Origin: Marivirga sericea
GTDB taxonomy: Bacteria > Bacteroidota > Bacteroidia > Cytophagales > Cyclobacteriaceae
Assembly: GCF_900177665.1 (NCBI RefSeq)
Contig: NZ_FXAW01000001.1
Location: 124,001 to 188,000, forward strand
Direction: 5' to 3'
DNA: 64,000 nucleotides
The notes below the pieces were generated by a model. That model made no database searches and was not told where the DNA came from. It was given only the letters and a program-made list of their open reading frames with translations. Both the position numbers and the translations under genes were made by a program. The first letter of the stretch is position 1, and every line of letters begins with the position of its first letter. Below, piece by piece: positions 34,819 through 43,801 of this stretch.

Positions 34819-36089
34819 GTTGGTTAGAAAGAGATAACGAGAGTATTTGGCACCCGTTCACGCAATTGGTAGATGGGTTTGAGCATATAATGGTTGAAAG
34901 GGCAGAGGGAATGTATTTACATACTTCTGATGGCAGGAGGATTTTAGATGCCATTTCCAGCTGGTGGGTGAATTTACATGGTCATAGTCACCCTAAAATA
35001 GCGGAAGCGGTTGCTAAACAAGCACAGAATTTAGAGCATGTAATTTTCGCAGGATTCACACATGCTCCTGCGATTGAATTGGCAGAAAAACTACTTTCCA
35101 TTTTACCCGATAATCAATCAAAGATTTTTTATTCCGATAATGGAAGTACGGCCAATGAAGTGGCATTAAAGATGGCTTTTCAATATTGGTACAATAGAGG
35201 TAATGAAGAGAGAAAGAAAGTTATAGCCTTTGAGGGAGCTTATCATGGTGATACGTTTGGTGCTATGTCGGTAGGAGACCGAGGACCGTTTTCTGCTCCG
35301 TTTTCTCCCTTCCTTTTTGATGTCGATTTTATTCCTATGCCCGTTAAGGGGAATGAGGATGAAGTTATTCAGAAGTTTTATCAACTGGTTGAGTCCGATC
35401 AAGTAGCCGCCTTTATTTTTGAGCCTTTAGTGTTAGGATCTGCCGGAATGAAAATGTATGATGCCTCTTTTTTGGATAAACTTATCAATATTGCTCATGA
35501 TAATGATGTAATATGTATAGCAGATGAAGTTTTTACTGGTTTCGGAAGGACTGGAAAGCATTTTGCTTCAGATTACTTAGAAAATAAACCTGATATATTT
35601 TGTCTATCCAAAGGGCTTACAGGAGGGACAATGGCATTAGGAGTTACCTCCAGTACAGCTGATATTATGGAAGCTTATAAGAGTACTGATATCATGAAAA
35701 CGTTTTTCCATGGTCATAGCTTTACGGCTAATCCCATAGCTTGTGCTGCTTCTATTGCTAGTTTTGAATTATTAATGGAGGAAGATACTCAAAATCAAAT
35801 TACCAATATCAGTCATTGGCAATCAGAATTTAAAGAAAAGATATCAAAGCATCCAAAAGTTCTAAACAGTAGAGTGCTAGGAACCATCTTTGCATTAGAG
35901 TTGAAGACCGAATCCGATACGTCTTATGTGAATGAGGTTCGTCATAAGCTGTATCCTTTCTTTCTAGAAAGAAATATTCTTCTTCGCCCATTGGGAAATA
36001 TTATTTATATCTTGCCGCCCTATATTATCAAGAAAAAGGAGCTAGAACAAGTTTATAGTGCTGTTGAAGAGATGTTGGAAAGTTTGTAG
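34815..36089 (+). CDS. bioA: Adenosylmethionine-8-amino-7-oxononanoate aminotransferase
   Basis: A class III PLP aminotransferase that uses SAM as amino donor to convert KAPA to DAPA. The 424 residues match BioA (429 in E. coli). The N-terminal IWHPFTQL, SSWWVNLHGHSHP, the PLP contact Asp237 (CIADEVFTGFGRTG) and the Schiff-base Lys266 (FCLSKGLTGG) are typical. It is the last gene of the operon, followed by 173 bp without a recognised gene before the type B domain protein. Confidence 0.94.
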   Translation: MSWLERDNESIWHPFTQLVDGFEHIMVERAEGMYLHTSDGRRILDAISSWWVNLHGHSHPKIAEAVAKQAQNLEHVIFAGFTHAPAIELAEKLLSILPDNQSKIFYSDNGSTANEVALKMAFQYWYNRGNEERKKVIAFEGAYHGDTFGAMSVGDRGPFSAPFSPFLFDVDFIPMPVKGNEDEVIQKFYQLVESDQVAAFIFEPLVLGSAGMKMYDASFLDKLINIAHDNDVICIADEVFTGFGRTGKHFASDYLENKPDIFCLSKGLTGGTMALGVTSSTADIMEAYKSTDIMKTFFHGHSFTANPIACAASIASFELLMEEDTQNQITNISHWQSEFKEKISKHPKVLNSRVLGTIFALELKTESDTSYVNEVRHKLYPFFLERNILLRPLGNIIYILPPYIIKKKELEQVYSAVEEMLESL

Positions 36090-36262
36090 AAAAACAATAG
36101 TAGTAGGTTGATTGCATGTCCATGTAAGTGAATCACCTAAATCTCATTCGTATTTTTCCTTATTTTAATGCGGTTTATTCGTATTTTATTAAATAAGAAT
36201 TCCTCTAATTTATCAGAGTAATATTATGTCGAATTTTGAAATATCATCAAAAGGAATTCGTC

Positions 36263-36700
36263 ATGAAAAACTTCATCATCATAATCGGATTAGTATTATT
36301 AGGGTTTAATACTGCTTTTGCTGCGCAGGACCCGGATAAAAAACCCACCAAATTTCGTATAGTAGCTATAAATGCCTCAGATGATTCAATCGTGAGTGCT
36401 TCTAATATAATTACCTTGTTTCAGCCATTCTCACTTGAATTACCTACAGCATTCACACCAAATGGAGATGGTTTGAATGATGAGTTTGGTGCCGTTGCAG
36501 AAGGAGTGAAAGAGTATAGATTAGTGATTTATAATCGGTTCGGAGATATAGTTTTCACTTCTACTGATATTAATATGAAATGGGACGGAACTGTACAAAA
36601 TGAAAGTGCACCCTCCGGAGGTTATGTTTATCAGGTATATGCAAAAGGCCATGAAGGACATGGAGTAGATAAGTCAGGTAAAGTAATGCTAATTAAATAA
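36263..36700 (+). CDS. Stand-alone type B (gliding motility-associated) C-terminal domain protein
   Basis: A 145-residue exported protein: signal peptide (MKNFIIIIGLVLLGFNTAFA, end near residue 20), about 35 residues resembling the last strands of an FnIII domain (KFRIVAINASDDSIVSASN, then IITLFQP), then the CHU_C/type B sorting domain from residue about 62 (LPTAFTPNGDGLNDEF ... YRLVIYNRFGDIVF ... GGYVYQVYAKG ... KVMLIK). In most Bacteroidota this domain is the C-terminal end of very large adhesin-like proteins and directs them to T9SS. Here it is a separate gene, 8 bp before a giant PKD protein that lacks it. The frame is open 9 codons upstream, but the ATG at 36263 starts the signal peptide. 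Confidence 0.88.
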   Translation: MKNFIIIIGLVLLGFNTAFAAQDPDKKPTKFRIVAINASDDSIVSASNIITLFQPFSLELPTAFTPNGDGLNDEFGAVAEGVKEYRLVIYNRFGDIVFTSTDINMKWDGTVQNESAPSGGYVYQVYAKGHEGHGVDKSGKVMLIK

Positions 36701-36708
36701 TCATCATC

Positions 36709-39700
36709 ATGAAATCTATATCTTTTAAGTTTTGGACAATTTTTCTTTTCAGTATAATAGCTGTAGCCTATCAATCTTTAGGTCAAATTCAAGCTGAAAA
36801 AACTTCAGGATGTTTACCGCTAGTGGTAGAATTCGAAATTAACGCTTATGATTTTCAATCTGTAATTTGGCAAACTGAAGACGGCCAAAGTTCAACTGCT
36901 GAAGAGCCAACATTTATTTTTGAAGAATCAGGCGAGTGGCAGGTGACAGCAGATTTGACGCTAGAATCCGGAGAAGTTGTTCAATTGACTTGTGAAACCC
37001 CCATTTCTGTATACGAAAAACCTCAAGTTGATTTTTCTGTAGATGATGAAGTTTTTTGTATAGGTGAAAGCATCTTATTTACAAACCTTACAGATAATGC
37101 AGATTCTTTTATTTGGTCATTTGGCGATGGTAATCAATCAACTCAAGAAAACCCTACTTATCAATATGAAGAAGCTGGGATTTACACTGTAACGCTTACT
37201 GCGAAAGTTGAAGGTGCTTGTCAAGAGATGAAAGTTTTAGAAAATGCTGTTGAAGTTAAAGAAGCCGCAGCAGTAACTATTTCGTCAAGTAGGAATGCTC
37301 AGTGTTTGTCTGACGATGAATCTCTCCTTTTCACTTTAGAAGGGAATGTGAGTGATGTCCAATGGAATTTTGGTGATGGAAATACAAAAATTGGTAAAAC
37401 AGTAGAATATTTATACGCAGCAGTGGGAGAATACACTGTAGAAGTAAATTATTTAAATGAATTCGGTTGTTTGGTAAATGACCAATTAAACACTGTAATT
37501 GCAGTTGAAGAACTTCAAGCTCCCGCTGTCAAAGCAAGTGAGACTTCTGTTTGTCTTGGCGAAAACATAACTTTAAGTGCTGAACATCCTTCTCAAAATG
37601 GATTTGAGTGGGAGATTAATGGTCAAAATTACCAAGGCAAGAATATTACTTTTATTCCAGAAGTGCAAGGTGATATTACTGTTGTACTAACGTATACGAA
37701 TTCTGCAGGATGTTCCATTTCAGCTGTTGAAAATGCTTTATTTAGTGTTCAGGAAGTTCAGCCAATAACTATTGATTATGCTTCTTTTACTGGATGCGAA
37801 CCTTTCAATTTTCTGGCTTCAAATACTACTGCAGGAGCCTCTAGCTATGCTTGGAAAGTGAATGGAAAAACTATTCAAGGTAAAGACTTGAACTACACTT
37901 TTGAGAAAAATGGGAATTATAAAGTAATTGCTATCACGAAATATGAAACGGGATGTGAAGTAGAAAAAGAACTTGTTGACAGAATCCAAGTCTACAAAAG
38001 GAATACTGAGATAAAGGTCAGTGAATGGCAAGGTTGTGCGCCTTTCAATACCGAGTTCGTGATTTTGAACGGAGGAGCTACTGATGTAAAATGGTATTTA
38101 GATGAGCAACAAATTAGTGGGGATAAAGTAGATTTTCAATTCGAATATCCAGGTATTTATTATCCAAAAGTAAGCTATATCAATGATAAAGGATGTACTG
38201 TCGATTATGAGTTTGAAACGCCTATAACCGTTTTGGATAGGAGTATTCCCTTGGATGAACCGGAAGTAATTGAATCATGCACATTTACAGAAGTTCAGTT
38301 TAACGGTGCTATGGGGTATGATTTCTGGGAGTGGAACTTTGGGGATGGTCATTCTTCTACTAAGCAAAATCCAACGCATAGTTACAGTGATCCAGGGATA
38401 TATGAAGTAAGTTTAACCACCAACAATAAAAATAGCTGCAAAACCACAATAGCAACATACAATTTGATTAAAATACCTGATTTAGATGTTGAAACTGACT
38501 TTACTGTCTCAAAAGGAGAAGAGTGTGGCTATTTTAGCGTTTCCCTTGAGGCTGACCTAGAAGATTGGCAGAACATAAGCTGGTTTTATAATGAAAGTCT
38601 TTTGGGAACAGATAATCAGCTGAATGTTTCCTTTATATCATTAGGTGATGTAGGCATAAGCTATAGCATTGGAAGCGGTGGAGAGTGCACAAAAACTAAA
38701 GCTATTATGATTCCAAATCCATGGTCTGATTGTGAAAACCCTGAAATTGAAGAGGATGCTGAAGTTAAAACTGGTGATAGCCCTATAGGTAAGTTTCAGT
38801 TTTCAAGTTGCAATGCTCCTTACTCAATTGACTTGTTAAATCCCCTGCCTAGTGTCAGTAGTTTTGAATGGAGGTTTGAAGATGGTGAAAAGCATTCGAA
38901 AGAGAGTTTTACTAAGGTCTTTAATGAAGCAGGTGAACATAGAATTGGATATTGGGCTAAAGTCAACAAAGATAGTGTGATTTGGGTGGAAGATTATATA
39001 ACGGTAACCATTAATCAATCCGATATTGACTTTGAATATGAAGCAAGAAAAGTGTGTGAAGGATTTGAGATTTTTGTAAGTCCTGAAAATCCAGAGTTTG
39101 AAAATTATGAATGGAAGCTAAATAATAATGAAATAGAATTATCTGCTTCGGGAAGTTTTGTGATCGAAAGGGAAGGTTTGCATGCTATAAGTCTTTCTGC
39201 AAGTGGTCAGAATAATTGTGCTACTACTAAAATCAAAAATATTTTTATTGGTAATCGAGAAAATCAATTTATCAGTCCTAAAACATTATGCTTAGGAGAG
39301 GATTTAAGCGTTGAACATAATTTACATGGTTTTCAAGATATCAGGTGGGATATGGGAAATGGTGAGCTTATTGATGATTTTGATGCTCCCTATGTGTACA
39401 GCTCGTCAGGAGAGTATCAAATTAAAGCAATAGCAACAGACTTTGAAGGGTGCGAGTCCGTATTTGAGTTACCTCACAAACTGTCAATTAAAAATCCAAC
39501 ACCAGAATTTACTGCTAATAAGACGACTGGTTGTGGTGAGACTGTTATTAAATTTCGAAATCAGTCAGAAGGAGCTACATCATGGTTATGGGATTTTGGA
39601 AATGGTGCAAGCAGTACAGAAGAAAATCCTCGTATAAAGTTTTTGCCAGGCACTTACTCTGTAACATTGTCTTCTTCGAATGGAAATTGCAGCCAAACTA

Positions 39701-41982
39701 TAACCAAATCTGATTTTATAGTGATTCAAGAGTTAACTAGTGAATTTAGTTTTGAATATAATCAGCCGTGTTTACCTGTAGAAGTACAGTTTACTGATAA
39801 AAGTGTCAATGCCGTTAGTTGGTTCTGGGATTTTGGAGACGGAAATACTTCGACCCTTCAGAACCCATTACACACTTTTCATGAGTTGCCTAAAAGCAAA
39901 GTAACGCTAACTGTGGAAAATGATAAGGGCTGTAAAGTGACTGAGGAAAAAGCGATGAGTTTTATTTTTATAGCTAGCTTCACGTCTGATATAGAAAAGG
40001 TTTGTTTGGGCAATAGCGTACAATTTTCAGCTTTAAACAATGACGCTGTAAGTTGGAAATGGGACTTTGGTGATGGAACCACAAGTACTGAAAAGAATCC
40101 AAGTCATTTTTATAAGTCAGAAGGAATTTATGATGTTAAATTGATTGCCGATAATGAAGAAGGTTGTGCCGATATGGTCGTAAAAGAGCAATTTATTCAG
40201 GTTTTTCCTGCGGAAGCCGACTTCGAATTAGCGGAGTCCCTTGCTTCTAGCTGTGTTCCAGTACAAGTATCATTTAAAGATTTATCTACTGGTGCTAAGA
40301 GTTATTTCTGGGATTTTGGTGATGGAACAACTTCAAAAGTCGCAAACCCCATTCACGTTTATAATAAGGTTGGTGAGTTTGATGTCTCACTGGTAATTAC
40401 AAATGAACTAGGATGCCAAGATACCTTAATAAAAGAACAATTAGTGAAAGTAAGTGGCCCACAAACTGCTTTTGAGATAGAAGAAAAAGTAATATGTCTA
40501 CCTCAAAAAGCCAAATTTACTGATAAATCGGTCAGCGCTGTAAAGTGGAAATGGGTATTTGGAGATGGTAATACATCACTGGAACAAAATCCTGAACATT
40601 TATATCAAGCGCCAGGTATTTATACTGTTACTTTGATTGCAGAAAATGATCAAGGTTGTGAGCAATTTTTTCAAATGGAAGATGTTAAAGTACTACCAAC
40701 GCCTACAGTAGACTTTAAAATGGATATTTCGGGAGAGTGTTTTCCAGTCGAGCTTAAACTGACTAACGAAAGCACTGATTTATTAAAGCCATCGTACTTG
40801 TGGGAGTTTGGTGATGGACAGACCTCCACAGACGCAAATCCAACGATTTTAATAGAGAAAACTGGAACCTTCGAAGTTTCACTTACTGTAAAAAATGATG
40901 AAGGATGCCCTGTTAGCTATACACACAAGAATCAAGTATTCGTTCGAGATACAGTAGAACATAAGGAAGCTGACTTGACTCAAATATTGGTAGAAAACAA
41001 TCAGGTTAATTTTCAATTAGAACCCTACCAATATAATAATATTTCGCATTACAATGTTTATCGAGATAGTCCAACTGGCTATAGATTGTTACAGAAAATC
41101 GATTTGGAGGGACGAGCAAATCAACGCATTATATACGATGATAAGAGTTGTCGTCCTCAAGATATGTCGCATGAATATGTTTTTCAGGCGGTGTCCTTTT
41201 GTGATGATACAGTGAGTAGAGACTTATTAACAGTATTTAATACAATACTATTGCAGCCTGAGATCAACGAGGAACATCAAAAGCAAATTAATTGGAATAA
41301 GTCAAAAGGCTTTGCAATTGATAATCAGAGGATATTTAGAAAACCGAAAGGAGAGGGGCAATGGCAAGAAATAGCCGTTGTTAAAACTGATGCGGTACAA
41401 TACCAAGATGTTGAAGATTTATGCCCTGGTCTTTATGAATATAGAGTAGCGGCCTTCGAAAAAAATACATTAAGATCGATAAGTAACTACGTGGAAATTG
41501 AAGTAATTGATAAAATCTATGAAGAGCAGGTCGCGAAAATTCAAAACACCACTGTGATGGAAACGGGGGAAGTTTTTACGGAATGGAGCATACCAGAAGC
41601 AGGTAAAGGAAAGATCACCGCCTTTGAAATATATAGAAGTGAAAATGGAGGTGAGTTCCAATATTTTGATAGTGTAGAACCTCATGAGCAATACTATATA
41701 GATGATGAAAGTGATACTGACAATAATACTTACAAATACCAAGTTAAAGTGATCAATGATTGCTCGATTGATACTGAAAGTAGTGCCGAAAGTAATACTG
41801 TGCTGCTGCAAAAGGATGTACAGTTCAGGAAGTATGAACTAAGTTGGAATGCATTTGAAGGCTGGAAAGAAGGTGTTAAAAAGTATGTGATTCAGCGTTT
41901 AAACGAAAAAGGAGAATGGGAAACAGTGGAAGAAGTTTCAAGTGATCGCCATAAAATGATAATAAAAGATACTCAAGATTAA
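36709..41982 (+). CDS. Giant PKD/FnIII-domain secreted protein, last FnIII incomplete
   Basis: A 1757-residue exported protein (signal peptide end near SLGQ, residue 26). It holds about 17 PKD or PKD-like repeats to residue about 1395, nine of them with the clear FGDG/FGNG motif (for example WKWDFGDGTTSTEKNPSHFY). The N-terminal repeats are more degenerate and often contain a conserved cysteine. Three FnIII-like modules follow to about residue 1700, and a fourth that stops after SDRHKMIIKDTQD where the others continue with a YEYRVAAFE-like strand. No sorting domain is present. The missing half-domain and the sorting domain match the small protein encoded upstream. The function is presumably surface adhesion. 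Confidence 0.88.
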   Translation: MKSISFKFWTIFLFSIIAVAYQSLGQIQAEKTSGCLPLVVEFEINAYDFQSVIWQTEDGQSSTAEEPTFIFEESGEWQVTADLTLESGEVVQLTCETPISVYEKPQVDFSVDDEVFCIGESILFTNLTDNADSFIWSFGDGNQSTQENPTYQYEEAGIYTVTLTAKVEGACQEMKVLENAVEVKEAAAVTISSSRNAQCLSDDESLLFTLEGNVSDVQWNFGDGNTKIGKTVEYLYAAVGEYTVEVNYLNEFGCLVNDQLNTVIAVEELQAPAVKASETSVCLGENITLSAEHPSQNGFEWEINGQNYQGKNITFIPEVQGDITVVLTYTNSAGCSISAVENALFSVQEVQPITIDYASFTGCEPFNFLASNTTAGASSYAWKVNGKTIQGKDLNYTFEKNGNYKVIAITKYETGCEVEKELVDRIQVYKRNTEIKVSEWQGCAPFNTEFVILNGGATDVKWYLDEQQISGDKVDFQFEYPGIYYPKVSYINDKGCTVDYEFETPITVLDRSIPLDEPEVIESCTFTEVQFNGAMGYDFWEWNFGDGHSSTKQNPTHSYSDPGIYEVSLTTNNKNSCKTTIATYNLIKIPDLDVETDFTVSKGEECGYFSVSLEADLEDWQNISWFYNESLLGTDNQLNVSFISLGDVGISYSIGSGGECTKTKAIMIPNPWSDCENPEIEEDAEVKTGDSPIGKFQFSSCNAPYSIDLLNPLPSVSSFEWRFEDGEKHSKESFTKVFNEAGEHRIGYWAKVNKDSVIWVEDYITVTINQSDIDFEYEARKVCEGFEIFVSPENPEFENYEWKLNNNEIELSASGSFVIEREGLHAISLSASGQNNCATTKIKNIFIGNRENQFISPKTLCLGEDLSVEHNLHGFQDIRWDMGNGELIDDFDAPYVYSSSGEYQIKAIATDFEGCESVFELPHKLSIKNPTPEFTANKTTGCGETVIKFRNQSEGATSWLWDFGNGASSTEENPRIKFLPGTYSVTLSSSNGNCSQTITKSDFIVIQELTSEFSFEYNQPCLPVEVQFTDKSVNAVSWFWDFGDGNTSTLQNPLHTFHELPKSKVTLTVENDKGCKVTEEKAMSFIFIASFTSDIEKVCLGNSVQFSALNNDAVSWKWDFGDGTTSTEKNPSHFYKSEGIYDVKLIADNEEGCADMVVKEQFIQVFPAEADFELAESLASSCVPVQVSFKDLSTGAKSYFWDFGDGTTSKVANPIHVYNKVGEFDVSLVITNELGCQDTLIKEQLVKVSGPQTAFEIEEKVICLPQKAKFTDKSVSAVKWKWVFGDGNTSLEQNPEHLYQAPGIYTVTLIAENDQGCEQFFQMEDVKVLPTPTVDFKMDISGECFPVELKLTNESTDLLKPSYLWEFGDGQTSTDANPTILIEKTGTFEVSLTVKNDEGCPVSYTHKNQVFVRDTVEHKEADLTQILVENNQVNFQLEPYQYNNISHYNVYRDSPTGYRLLQKIDLEGRANQRIIYDDKSCRPQDMSHEYVFQAVSFCDDTVSRDLLTVFNTILLQPEINEEHQKQINWNKSKGFAIDNQRIFRKPKGEGQWQEIAVVKTDAVQYQDVEDLCPGLYEYRVAAFEKNTLRSISNYVEIEVIDKIYEEQVAKIQNTTVMETGEVFTEWSIPEAGKGKITAFEIYRSENGGEFQYFDSVEPHEQYYIDDESDTDNNTYKYQVKVINDCSIDTESSAESNTVLLQKDVQFRKYELSWNAFEGWKEGVKKYVIQRLNEKGEWETVEEVSSDRHKMIIKDTQD

Positions 41983-42091
41983 TTATTGTATTTCTATGCA
42001 TTTGTTAGAAGGTGATAATTCTAGTAAACTTAATACAGTACAGGAAGACATCAGTTATTGATGGAAATGTATATGATCGGCAGTAAACAAA

Positions 42092-42118
42092 AAAAGCCAC
42101 CAAAATTTGGTGGCTTTT
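42092..42118. terminator. Bidirectional terminator
   Basis: AAAAGCCACCAAA and TTTGGTGGCTTTT form a perfect 13-bp stem around a single A, the strongest hairpin of the window. It separates the PKD gene from the tRNA genes that face it. Confidence 0.85.
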
Positions 42119-42125
42119 CTGCTTG

Positions 42126-42197
42126 TAGCCCGTAGGGGAATCGAACCCCTGTTTCCAGGATGAAAACCTGATATCCTAACCCCTAGATGAACGGGCC
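42126..42197 (-). tRNA. tRNA-Glu (anticodon TTC)
   Basis: Reads on the minus strand from GGCCCGTTCATCTAGG to ACGGGCTA, 72 nt. The acceptor stem pairs GGCCCGT with ACGGGCT (G-U at the end), the T-arm is CAGGGGTTCGAATCCCCT-like, and the anticodon loop is TTTTCAT with TTC. No encoded CCA. It is identical to the copy at 42293. Confidence 0.95.
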
Positions 42198-42292
42198 ATC
42201 ACTGCATTTAATCAAAAAATTAGTTTTGAATAAAAAAGGTTAAATCTATTAAAATCAATGACTTAATAACTTTTTTATTAAGTGTCCTAAAG

Positions 42293-42364
42293 TAGCCCGT
42301 AGGGGAATCGAACCCCTGTTTCCAGGATGAAAACCTGATATCCTAACCCCTAGATGAACGGGCC
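42293..42364 (-). tRNA. tRNA-Glu (anticodon TTC), identical copy
   Basis: Identical over 72 nt and a few flanking bases to the tRNA at 42126-42197, in the same orientation. The 95-bp spacer holds a hairpin ACTTAATAA/TTATTAAGT (42261-42283). The upstream copy here lies directly behind the promoter at 42382-42412, so both are probably processed from one transcript. Confidence 0.95.
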
Positions 42365-42381
42365 ATTTTTAAATGGAGATG

Positions 42382-42412
42382 CAAATATAGAAGGCTCTTT
42401 TTTAATTACAAA
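42382..42412 (-). promoter_or_regulatory. Promoter of the tRNA-Glu pair
   Basis: On the minus strand TTTG (42412-42409), exactly 19 bp, then TATATTTG (42389-42382) match the Bacteroidota consensus perfectly. The predicted start is about 10 bp before the tRNA at 42364. Confidence 0.8.
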
Positions 42413-42736
42413 CCCAAGCATGAAAAAAATGTAAAAATATTTTCTTAACTATGCTTTAGGGCCTCATTTTGAGATTATTGGTATTTCAGAATTAAAAAGA
42501 ATTCGATAGCTAAGACGAGCTTTCCTAAATATGGTTGGCCATAGCAAAAGCAGAAAAGGCCAGTTGGTTCTTTATATGCAGAAGCTTCCCCTCTCTATAG
42601 GTAGCAGTTAATGATTTTCCTTTTATGAAAAATTCTTTGCAAAAGCCTGCAATAGTTTAGGCATCTGAAGAGGAACACACATTTAAGGGGCTCTTTAATC
42701 GTAAATGTTGATCAAACTCAGGTTTTAAGCCTGTAA
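42413..42736. other. Intergenic stretch without recognised gene
   Basis: About 320 bp between the tRNA promoter and the gap promoter. No open frame above 40 codons with coding character, no hairpin with T-run and no repeat was seen. Confidence 0.6.
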
Positions 42737-42768
42737 TTTGATAATGCTGACAAGTAGGTTTATATTTA
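42737..42768 (+). promoter_or_regulatory. Promoter of the gap gene
   Basis: TTTG (42737-42740), 20 bp, then TATATTTA (42761-42768, one mismatch to TAnnTTTG). The predicted start near 42775 gives a leader of about 30 nt. Confidence 0.65.
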
Positions 42769-42790
42769 CATCTTAATTTAACTTAACTAA

Positions 42791-43801
<1,011 letters not shown>

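Follow-up and report, generated by a model that had tools for sequence, protein, structure and literature searches.

Two adjacent genes of Marivirga sericea probably specify one three-part adhesin of T9SS type B, in which the sorting domain would be supplied in trans by complementation between two fragments of a single FnIII domain. They lie in the window, a stretch of 64,000 nucleotides (positions 124,001 to 188,000 of contig NZ_FXAW01000001.1). There, a small gene (36263..36700, + strand) encodes a 145-aa protein in which a leader is followed by strands F and G of an FnIII domain and then by a type B sorting domain. The giant gene behind it (36709..41982, + strand) encodes a 1757-aa protein that has some 13 PKD stretches and FnIII domains behind a probable signal peptide, but no sorting domain of its own. 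We infer the association of the two chains, their secretion in trans and their anchoring from what is seen in sequence: a conserved split, three genes that occur together and purifying selection on both half domains.

Partition of one FnIII domain between two genes

The small gene is defined by its open reading frame, by CHU_C/TIGR04131 matches and by orthologues in all 15 pairs that we found among relatives (see below); we chose the ATG at 36263 as its start, while the mechanically called ORF opens at TTG 36236. Its product consists of a hydrophobic leader, then FRIVAINASDDSIVSASNIITLF, then CHU_C. The leader is a probable Sec signal peptide (about residues 1–20; 36263..36322, + strand), a hydrophobic stretch present in 15/15 orthologues. 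Residues 31–55 (36353..36427, + strand) can be read as the F and G strands that the giant's last FnIII lacks, an assignment based on the profile partition and on scoring of the FnIII part alone. Residues 59–131 (36437..36655, + strand) form the core of the CHU_C type B T9SS sorting domain, which stands at the C-terminus and scores 60 bits against Pfam PF13585 (cut-off 27) and 52.8 bits against NCBIfam TIGR04131 (cut-off 35). A hydrophobic leader opens the large protein of each of the 15 pairs as well.

In the giant, PKD_4 matches 13 stretches (Pfam). Its last FnIII is truncated, with approximately strands A–E in residues 1691–1757 (41779..41979, + strand; identified by profile match), and ends at the break point: the C-terminus reads ...HKMIIKDTQD, and the stop falls after strand E. 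Neither CHU_C nor TIGR04131 matched the 1757-aa protein in Pfam and NCBIfam, and with no sorting domain in its own chain the giant alone lies outside the T9SS type B substrate class. The two genes share the + strand, stand in different frames and are separated by 8 bp (36701..36708, + strand; 0–26 bp in the other 14 pairs). We ruled out a continued or frameshifted giant downstream, where positions 41983–42805 hold short frames and two tRNA-Glu genes only. The first-pass annotation had described a giant surface protein split across two genes, and this arrangement is real: both ORFs are in place, the giant ends in mid-FnIII and nothing downstream continues it. The distance from the end of the giant to the next gene is 823 bp and includes the two tRNA-Glu genes, a near-identical tandem (TTC) on the − strand at window positions 42125–42197 and 42292–42364. 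A promoter scan of 36000–37000 gave five promoter-like sites against a shuffle mean of 4.3, no excess, and we found no tandem repeats in 36000–42500.

The case for a shared domain rests on a reference profile of 195 positions, built from 16 unsplit FnIII+CHU_C C-termini that comprise a family of proteins of about 640 aa and a paralogue from the window's own genome (G000). The unsplit set started from 25 loci, 22 of which gave a frame (L003, L006 and L032 did not) and 16 of which entered the profile; six were left out as other CHU_C proteins and reused as controls. In 15/15 pairs, the giant's last piece covers the profile from position 2 to 53–68 and the small protein covers it from 71–78 to 193–195, with no overlap, so that two chains jointly hold the strands of one Fn3 domain. 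In G000, giant residues 1685–1747 match positions 2–65 (i-E 2e-10) and the small protein matches 71–195 (i-E 5e-45). The small protein served as query in retrieving all 16 profile members, a selection that favours its own match and does not touch that of the giant. Residues 1508–1603 of the giant, an earlier FnIII, match positions 10–108 and thus make a complete domain. Against the FnIII part alone (110 profile positions), the 50 residues before the sorting domain matched from position 71–80 onward at 13.9–25.3 bits in 15/15 pairs, compared with maxima of 4.9 bits over 300 shuffles and 3.3 bits among the six other CHU_C proteins, one of which had no match. Judged by these alignments, the split of an FnIII domain between the two genes is beyond chance, and the earlier reading of the two ends as halves of one domain is borne out by the partition of a single profile in every pair.

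The strand names F–G and A–E are a reading from the alignments, with which AlphaFold models agree only roughly. Single-chain models of the separate pieces (five sequences each) were mediocre, with mean pLDDT of 65.7 and 64.7, and PDB fold searches with them returned weak FnIII-like or Ig-like matches. When PDB sequences were compared with the small-protein profile at E ≤ 0.1, the sole match was the Aureispira grappling hook protein GhpA (9flp), near its C-terminus.

Distribution of the pair and of a putative PorP/SprF-like partner

A search for the same gene pair in relatives found it in 15/390 sampled family genomes, and at the thresholds used neither gene occurred alone. The 15 carriers belong to three genera and share the break point; within Marivirga, 8/10 genomes carry the pair. 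The giant's C-terminus matched 16/390 family genomes at E up to 1e-18, of which 15 have a frame of 1755–1775 aa and one an unsplit paralogue; this sixteenth match (G443, a 648-aa frame) was rejected as a giant on its end sequence, which is that of the unsplit ~640-aa paralogue. With the small-protein profile, short frames (147–171 aa; E up to 6.4e-56) came up in precisely these 15 genomes, and its next match (2.3e-37) was an unsplit protein. These searches took the best candidates per genome, at most five for the giant C-terminus and at most 11 for the small protein. Two short frames, in G394 (202 aa) and G435 (283 aa), were rejected as small genes because they are unsplit proteins running off the available sequence.

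The small gene precedes the large one in 15/15 pairs, and the circularly permuted order noted in the window thus holds throughout. Giants are 1750–1768 aa long from the chosen starts. Over the C-terminal 360 aa, the giant of the window is 29–31% identical to the seven non-Marivirga giants; a shared break point at such low identity favours the two-chain reading, and by these comparisons the split pair is old and conserved. The first-pass annotation had named, as evidence that would count against it, relatives with a sorting domain in the giant itself. We found no such giant and no fused form among 390 family, 291 order and 395 phylum genomes (overlapping samples). At E up to 1e-20, the giant C-terminus appeared in the phylum sample only in G000, and at E up to 1e-25 it appeared in the order sample in G000 and G316, both of the same family. 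The genome sets are samples, and pairs more diverged or differently split would escape them.

In the two Marivirga genomes without the pair (G005 and G009), bioA adjoins the GAPDH gene with neither pair gene between them, and neither gene was found elsewhere in these genomes at E ≤ 1e-20. In two other Marivirga, G003 (L044) and G007 (L047), the pair does not lie beside bioA, and it therefore seems to move as a unit.

Small proteins that carry little besides a sorting domain are unusual. Six genomes gave 100 CHU_C matches (E up to 0.001), of which six lie in frames shorter than 200 aa: five are pair genes, and the sixth sits where a contig begins. The shortest frames after these measure 382 and 385 aa, and the pair-less G005 had none below 200 aa. 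The suggestion that one sorting domain might serve several giants fares poorly on these counts, since nearly all other CHU_C matches in the six genomes lie in long frames and, across the 390 genomes, the thresholds used gave no small gene in a genome that lacks the giant.

Beyond what the first-pass annotation had proposed, the pair has a probable third partner. A PorP/SprF-like gene lies directly upstream of the pair in 7/7 non-Marivirga operons (7/15 pairs). Pfam, run on one of these proteins, assigned it to PF11751, and the other operon proteins group with it. The best relative in the window's genome, also PF11751, lies far from the pair (G000:C17:1055060-1056037, equivalent to L113:7061-8038) and matches at 39% identity and 245 bits, where the next candidate reaches 118 bits; inspection by eye revealed no CHU_C-like ORF within 14 kb around it. 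Seven other pair-bearing Marivirga have a counterpart of 57–85% identity on another contig or far off, which brings the genus to 8/8 genomes with the pair, and at E ≤ 1e-40 a counterpart was found in 0/6 tested pair-less genomes, including both pair-less Marivirga. The best matches of the G000 gene in the seven other genomes with the pair are the operon genes. In a thinly sampled tree, all 15 SprF-like proteins group together (97/96 support) to the exclusion of four further paralogues. Because the Marivirga SprF-like gene does not lie beside the pair, its co-occurrence with the pair is not explained by adjacency.

All 15 SprF-like proteins also share one conserved Cys in a C-terminal GKC/GQC tail, where Flavobacterium johnsoniae SprF has Cys-X-Cys. 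In F. johnsoniae, SprF is bonded through a Cys in its tail to GldK, a protein of the gliding track (PMC12635249, in part). Going by the conserved tail Cys, a link of the SprF-like partner to the gliding track is possible.

Selection on the half domains and alternative readings

We compared pN/pS across seven segments in six close Marivirga, where pS of 0.51–0.70 is near saturation and makes the ratios rough. The F–G segment has the lowest ratio (0.092) and the giant's last fragment the second lowest (0.105), followed by the sorting domain (0.22), the small protein's tail before F–G (0.24), the giant body (0.30) and the leaders (0.43 and 0.58). By this measure both half domains are under purifying selection and neither is decaying. 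In column identity among the close Marivirga, 23/1691 sequence windows of the giant beat its last fragment and 18/121 of the small protein beat F–G. With all 15 sequences the counts of more conserved windows are 267/1691 and 52/121, and the half domains are not outstandingly conserved over the full set. Mirror-tree correlations were high everywhere (r 0.73–0.96), hence uninformative.

These ratios bear on an alternative in which the small protein works by itself as a short type B substrate, the giant gets to the periplasm or surface by some other route, and a gene break left the two FnIII remnants behind. An origin of the pair by duplication and degeneration is conceivable, if conjectural; the AlphaFold models of the separate pieces show no interface; and adjacency alone could explain the co-inheritance of the two genes, unlike that of the separate SprF-like gene in Marivirga. 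Yet the supposed leftovers have the lowest pN/pS of the seven segments, the break point is kept in 15/15 pairs, and the sole other CHU_C frame below 200 aa in the six genomes sits at a contig start. We consider this alternative unlikely.

A second alternative, to which we give a slim chance, is that the halves meet only after separate export, for example with the giant let out by a different path and then caught at the surface by displayed small protein. Both chains have a leader-like N-terminus, so that each probably enters the periplasm alone, and the giant has no sorting domain, as this order of events would have it; however, the giant's Pfam and NCBIfam matches show no other outer-membrane route.

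Third, the chains might become covalently joined after docking, by an isopeptide or a disulfide bond. An isopeptide-forming (SpyTag-like) split domain needs a conserved Lys, an Asn or Asp and a catalytic acid. The first two have candidates: K1702 is present in 15/15 split giants and in 0/16 unsplit homologues, and N48 of the small protein is invariant (15/15). However, the giant's last fragment has no invariant acid (E1738 occurs in 14/15), its last 70 residues contain no Cys in 15/15 giants, and no Cys is conserved in the small protein, all of which makes covalent joining very improbable in our view. W1737 shows the same distribution as K1702 (15/15 and 0/16), and Q1729 occurs in 15/15 split giants and 4/16 unsplit homologues; all three residues may reflect adaptation to the split or merely shared ancestry. 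Finally, the same arrangement in 15 genomes of three genera refutes both an error of sequencing or assembly and a break that arose recently in a single strain, and we assign this reading a negligible probability.

Proposed assembly and comparison with known systems

Supply of the sorting domain in trans, which the first-pass annotation had proposed, is the likeliest use of a pair kept as a unit, with one break point, in 15 genomes of three genera. The small protein and the giant would each be exported by Sec with their own leaders. In the periplasm, strands F–G of the small protein would join the A–E half at the end of the giant to make up a whole FnIII domain, and the giant would thereby gain a sorting domain non-covalently. 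A cognate PorP/SprF shuttle would then recognise the sorting domain, bring the assembled chains out through the T9SS translocon and anchor them on the surface. T9SS cargo can cross folded; the part of PMC10994853 covered here has no statement on the point. PorP/SprF binds type B proteins (PMC9143113, in part), and type B domains depend on their cognate SprF-like shuttle, with reporters fused to such sorting domains being exported if that shuttle is made alongside them (PMC12618676, in part); a chain that docks firmly on a type B domain could therefore be a passenger. As for the permuted order, we conjecture that a gene was duplicated in tandem and that the first copy then lost a middle part and the second copy its end.

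A further and tentative possibility, with perhaps a modest chance of being right, is that the adhesin is deliberately two-chained: the translocon would export a preassembled complex held by one FnIII completed in trans, and the split domain could be a breakaway joint. If this were true, the joint would yield under gliding or adhesion force, the giant being shed and replaced while the SprF-bound sorting stub is kept. In the part of the T9SS literature covered, the sorting domain belongs to the cargo chain. A conserved adaptor that provides it in trans would mean that the T9SS can export a non-covalent complex, would let giants without a sorting domain be secreted, and would give engineers a split FnIII from nature that evolution has tuned. 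The pair also allows one to test directly whether folding or assembly of cargo comes before its passage through the outer membrane. Titles and opening lines of abstracts disclosed no case of a T9SS sorting domain in trans or of strand complementation, and the portion of the literature on Marivirga with PKD domains or the T9SS that was covered held nothing on this pair.

The nearest analogues are SprB/SprF and the split Fn3 of HCF-1. SprB/SprF and other type B (CHU_C) substrates share with the pair the type B domain, an accompanying PorP/SprF gene and a large repeat passenger. In that type, however, the sorting domain lies within the substrate and the gene for the shuttle commonly follows directly downstream (PMC12618676, in part), whereas our pair has its passenger on a second polypeptide and its shuttle gene either upstream or elsewhere in the genome. 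In HCF-1, half-Fn3 pieces associate non-covalently (PMC6582346, in part), and its SAS1 (Fn3n/Fn3c) is likewise one Fn3 made up by two chains; for our pair, such an association is proposed. HCF-1 SAS1 (PDB 4go6) was also the top Foldseek match, a weak one from a mediocre model (E 9.9e-04, TM 0.26). HCF-1 is a single nuclear precursor cut by a protease, in contrast to two genes in different frames with two leaders, permuted order and a proposed role in secretion; the halves here do not arise by proteolysis of one precursor, and the pair is similar to the HCF-1 split Fn3 in its working and not a member of that class. In engineered split monobodies, Fn3 reassembles from two peptides (PMC11666773, in part), but these are artificial and cut in the CD loop, whereas the present split is natural and falls between strands E and F.

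The split also recalls the donor strands of fimbriae. In fimbrial donor-strand complementation, an incomplete Ig-like domain obtains the beta structure that it lacks from a partner chain; the pair differs in that F–G are two strands in sequence order, the pairing is one-to-one and no polymer is implied. The ~640-aa FnIII+CHU_C family, including the paralogue in the window's genome (G000:C16, L077:3006-4931), has the same module in one unsplit chain, with K1702 and W1737 absent from the 16 members compared, and is a possible source of the split module. This family occurs in many genomes of the family and the order, and at the two loci inspected by eye (L077 and L107) its neighbours are hisS-like and glycosyltransferase-like genes.
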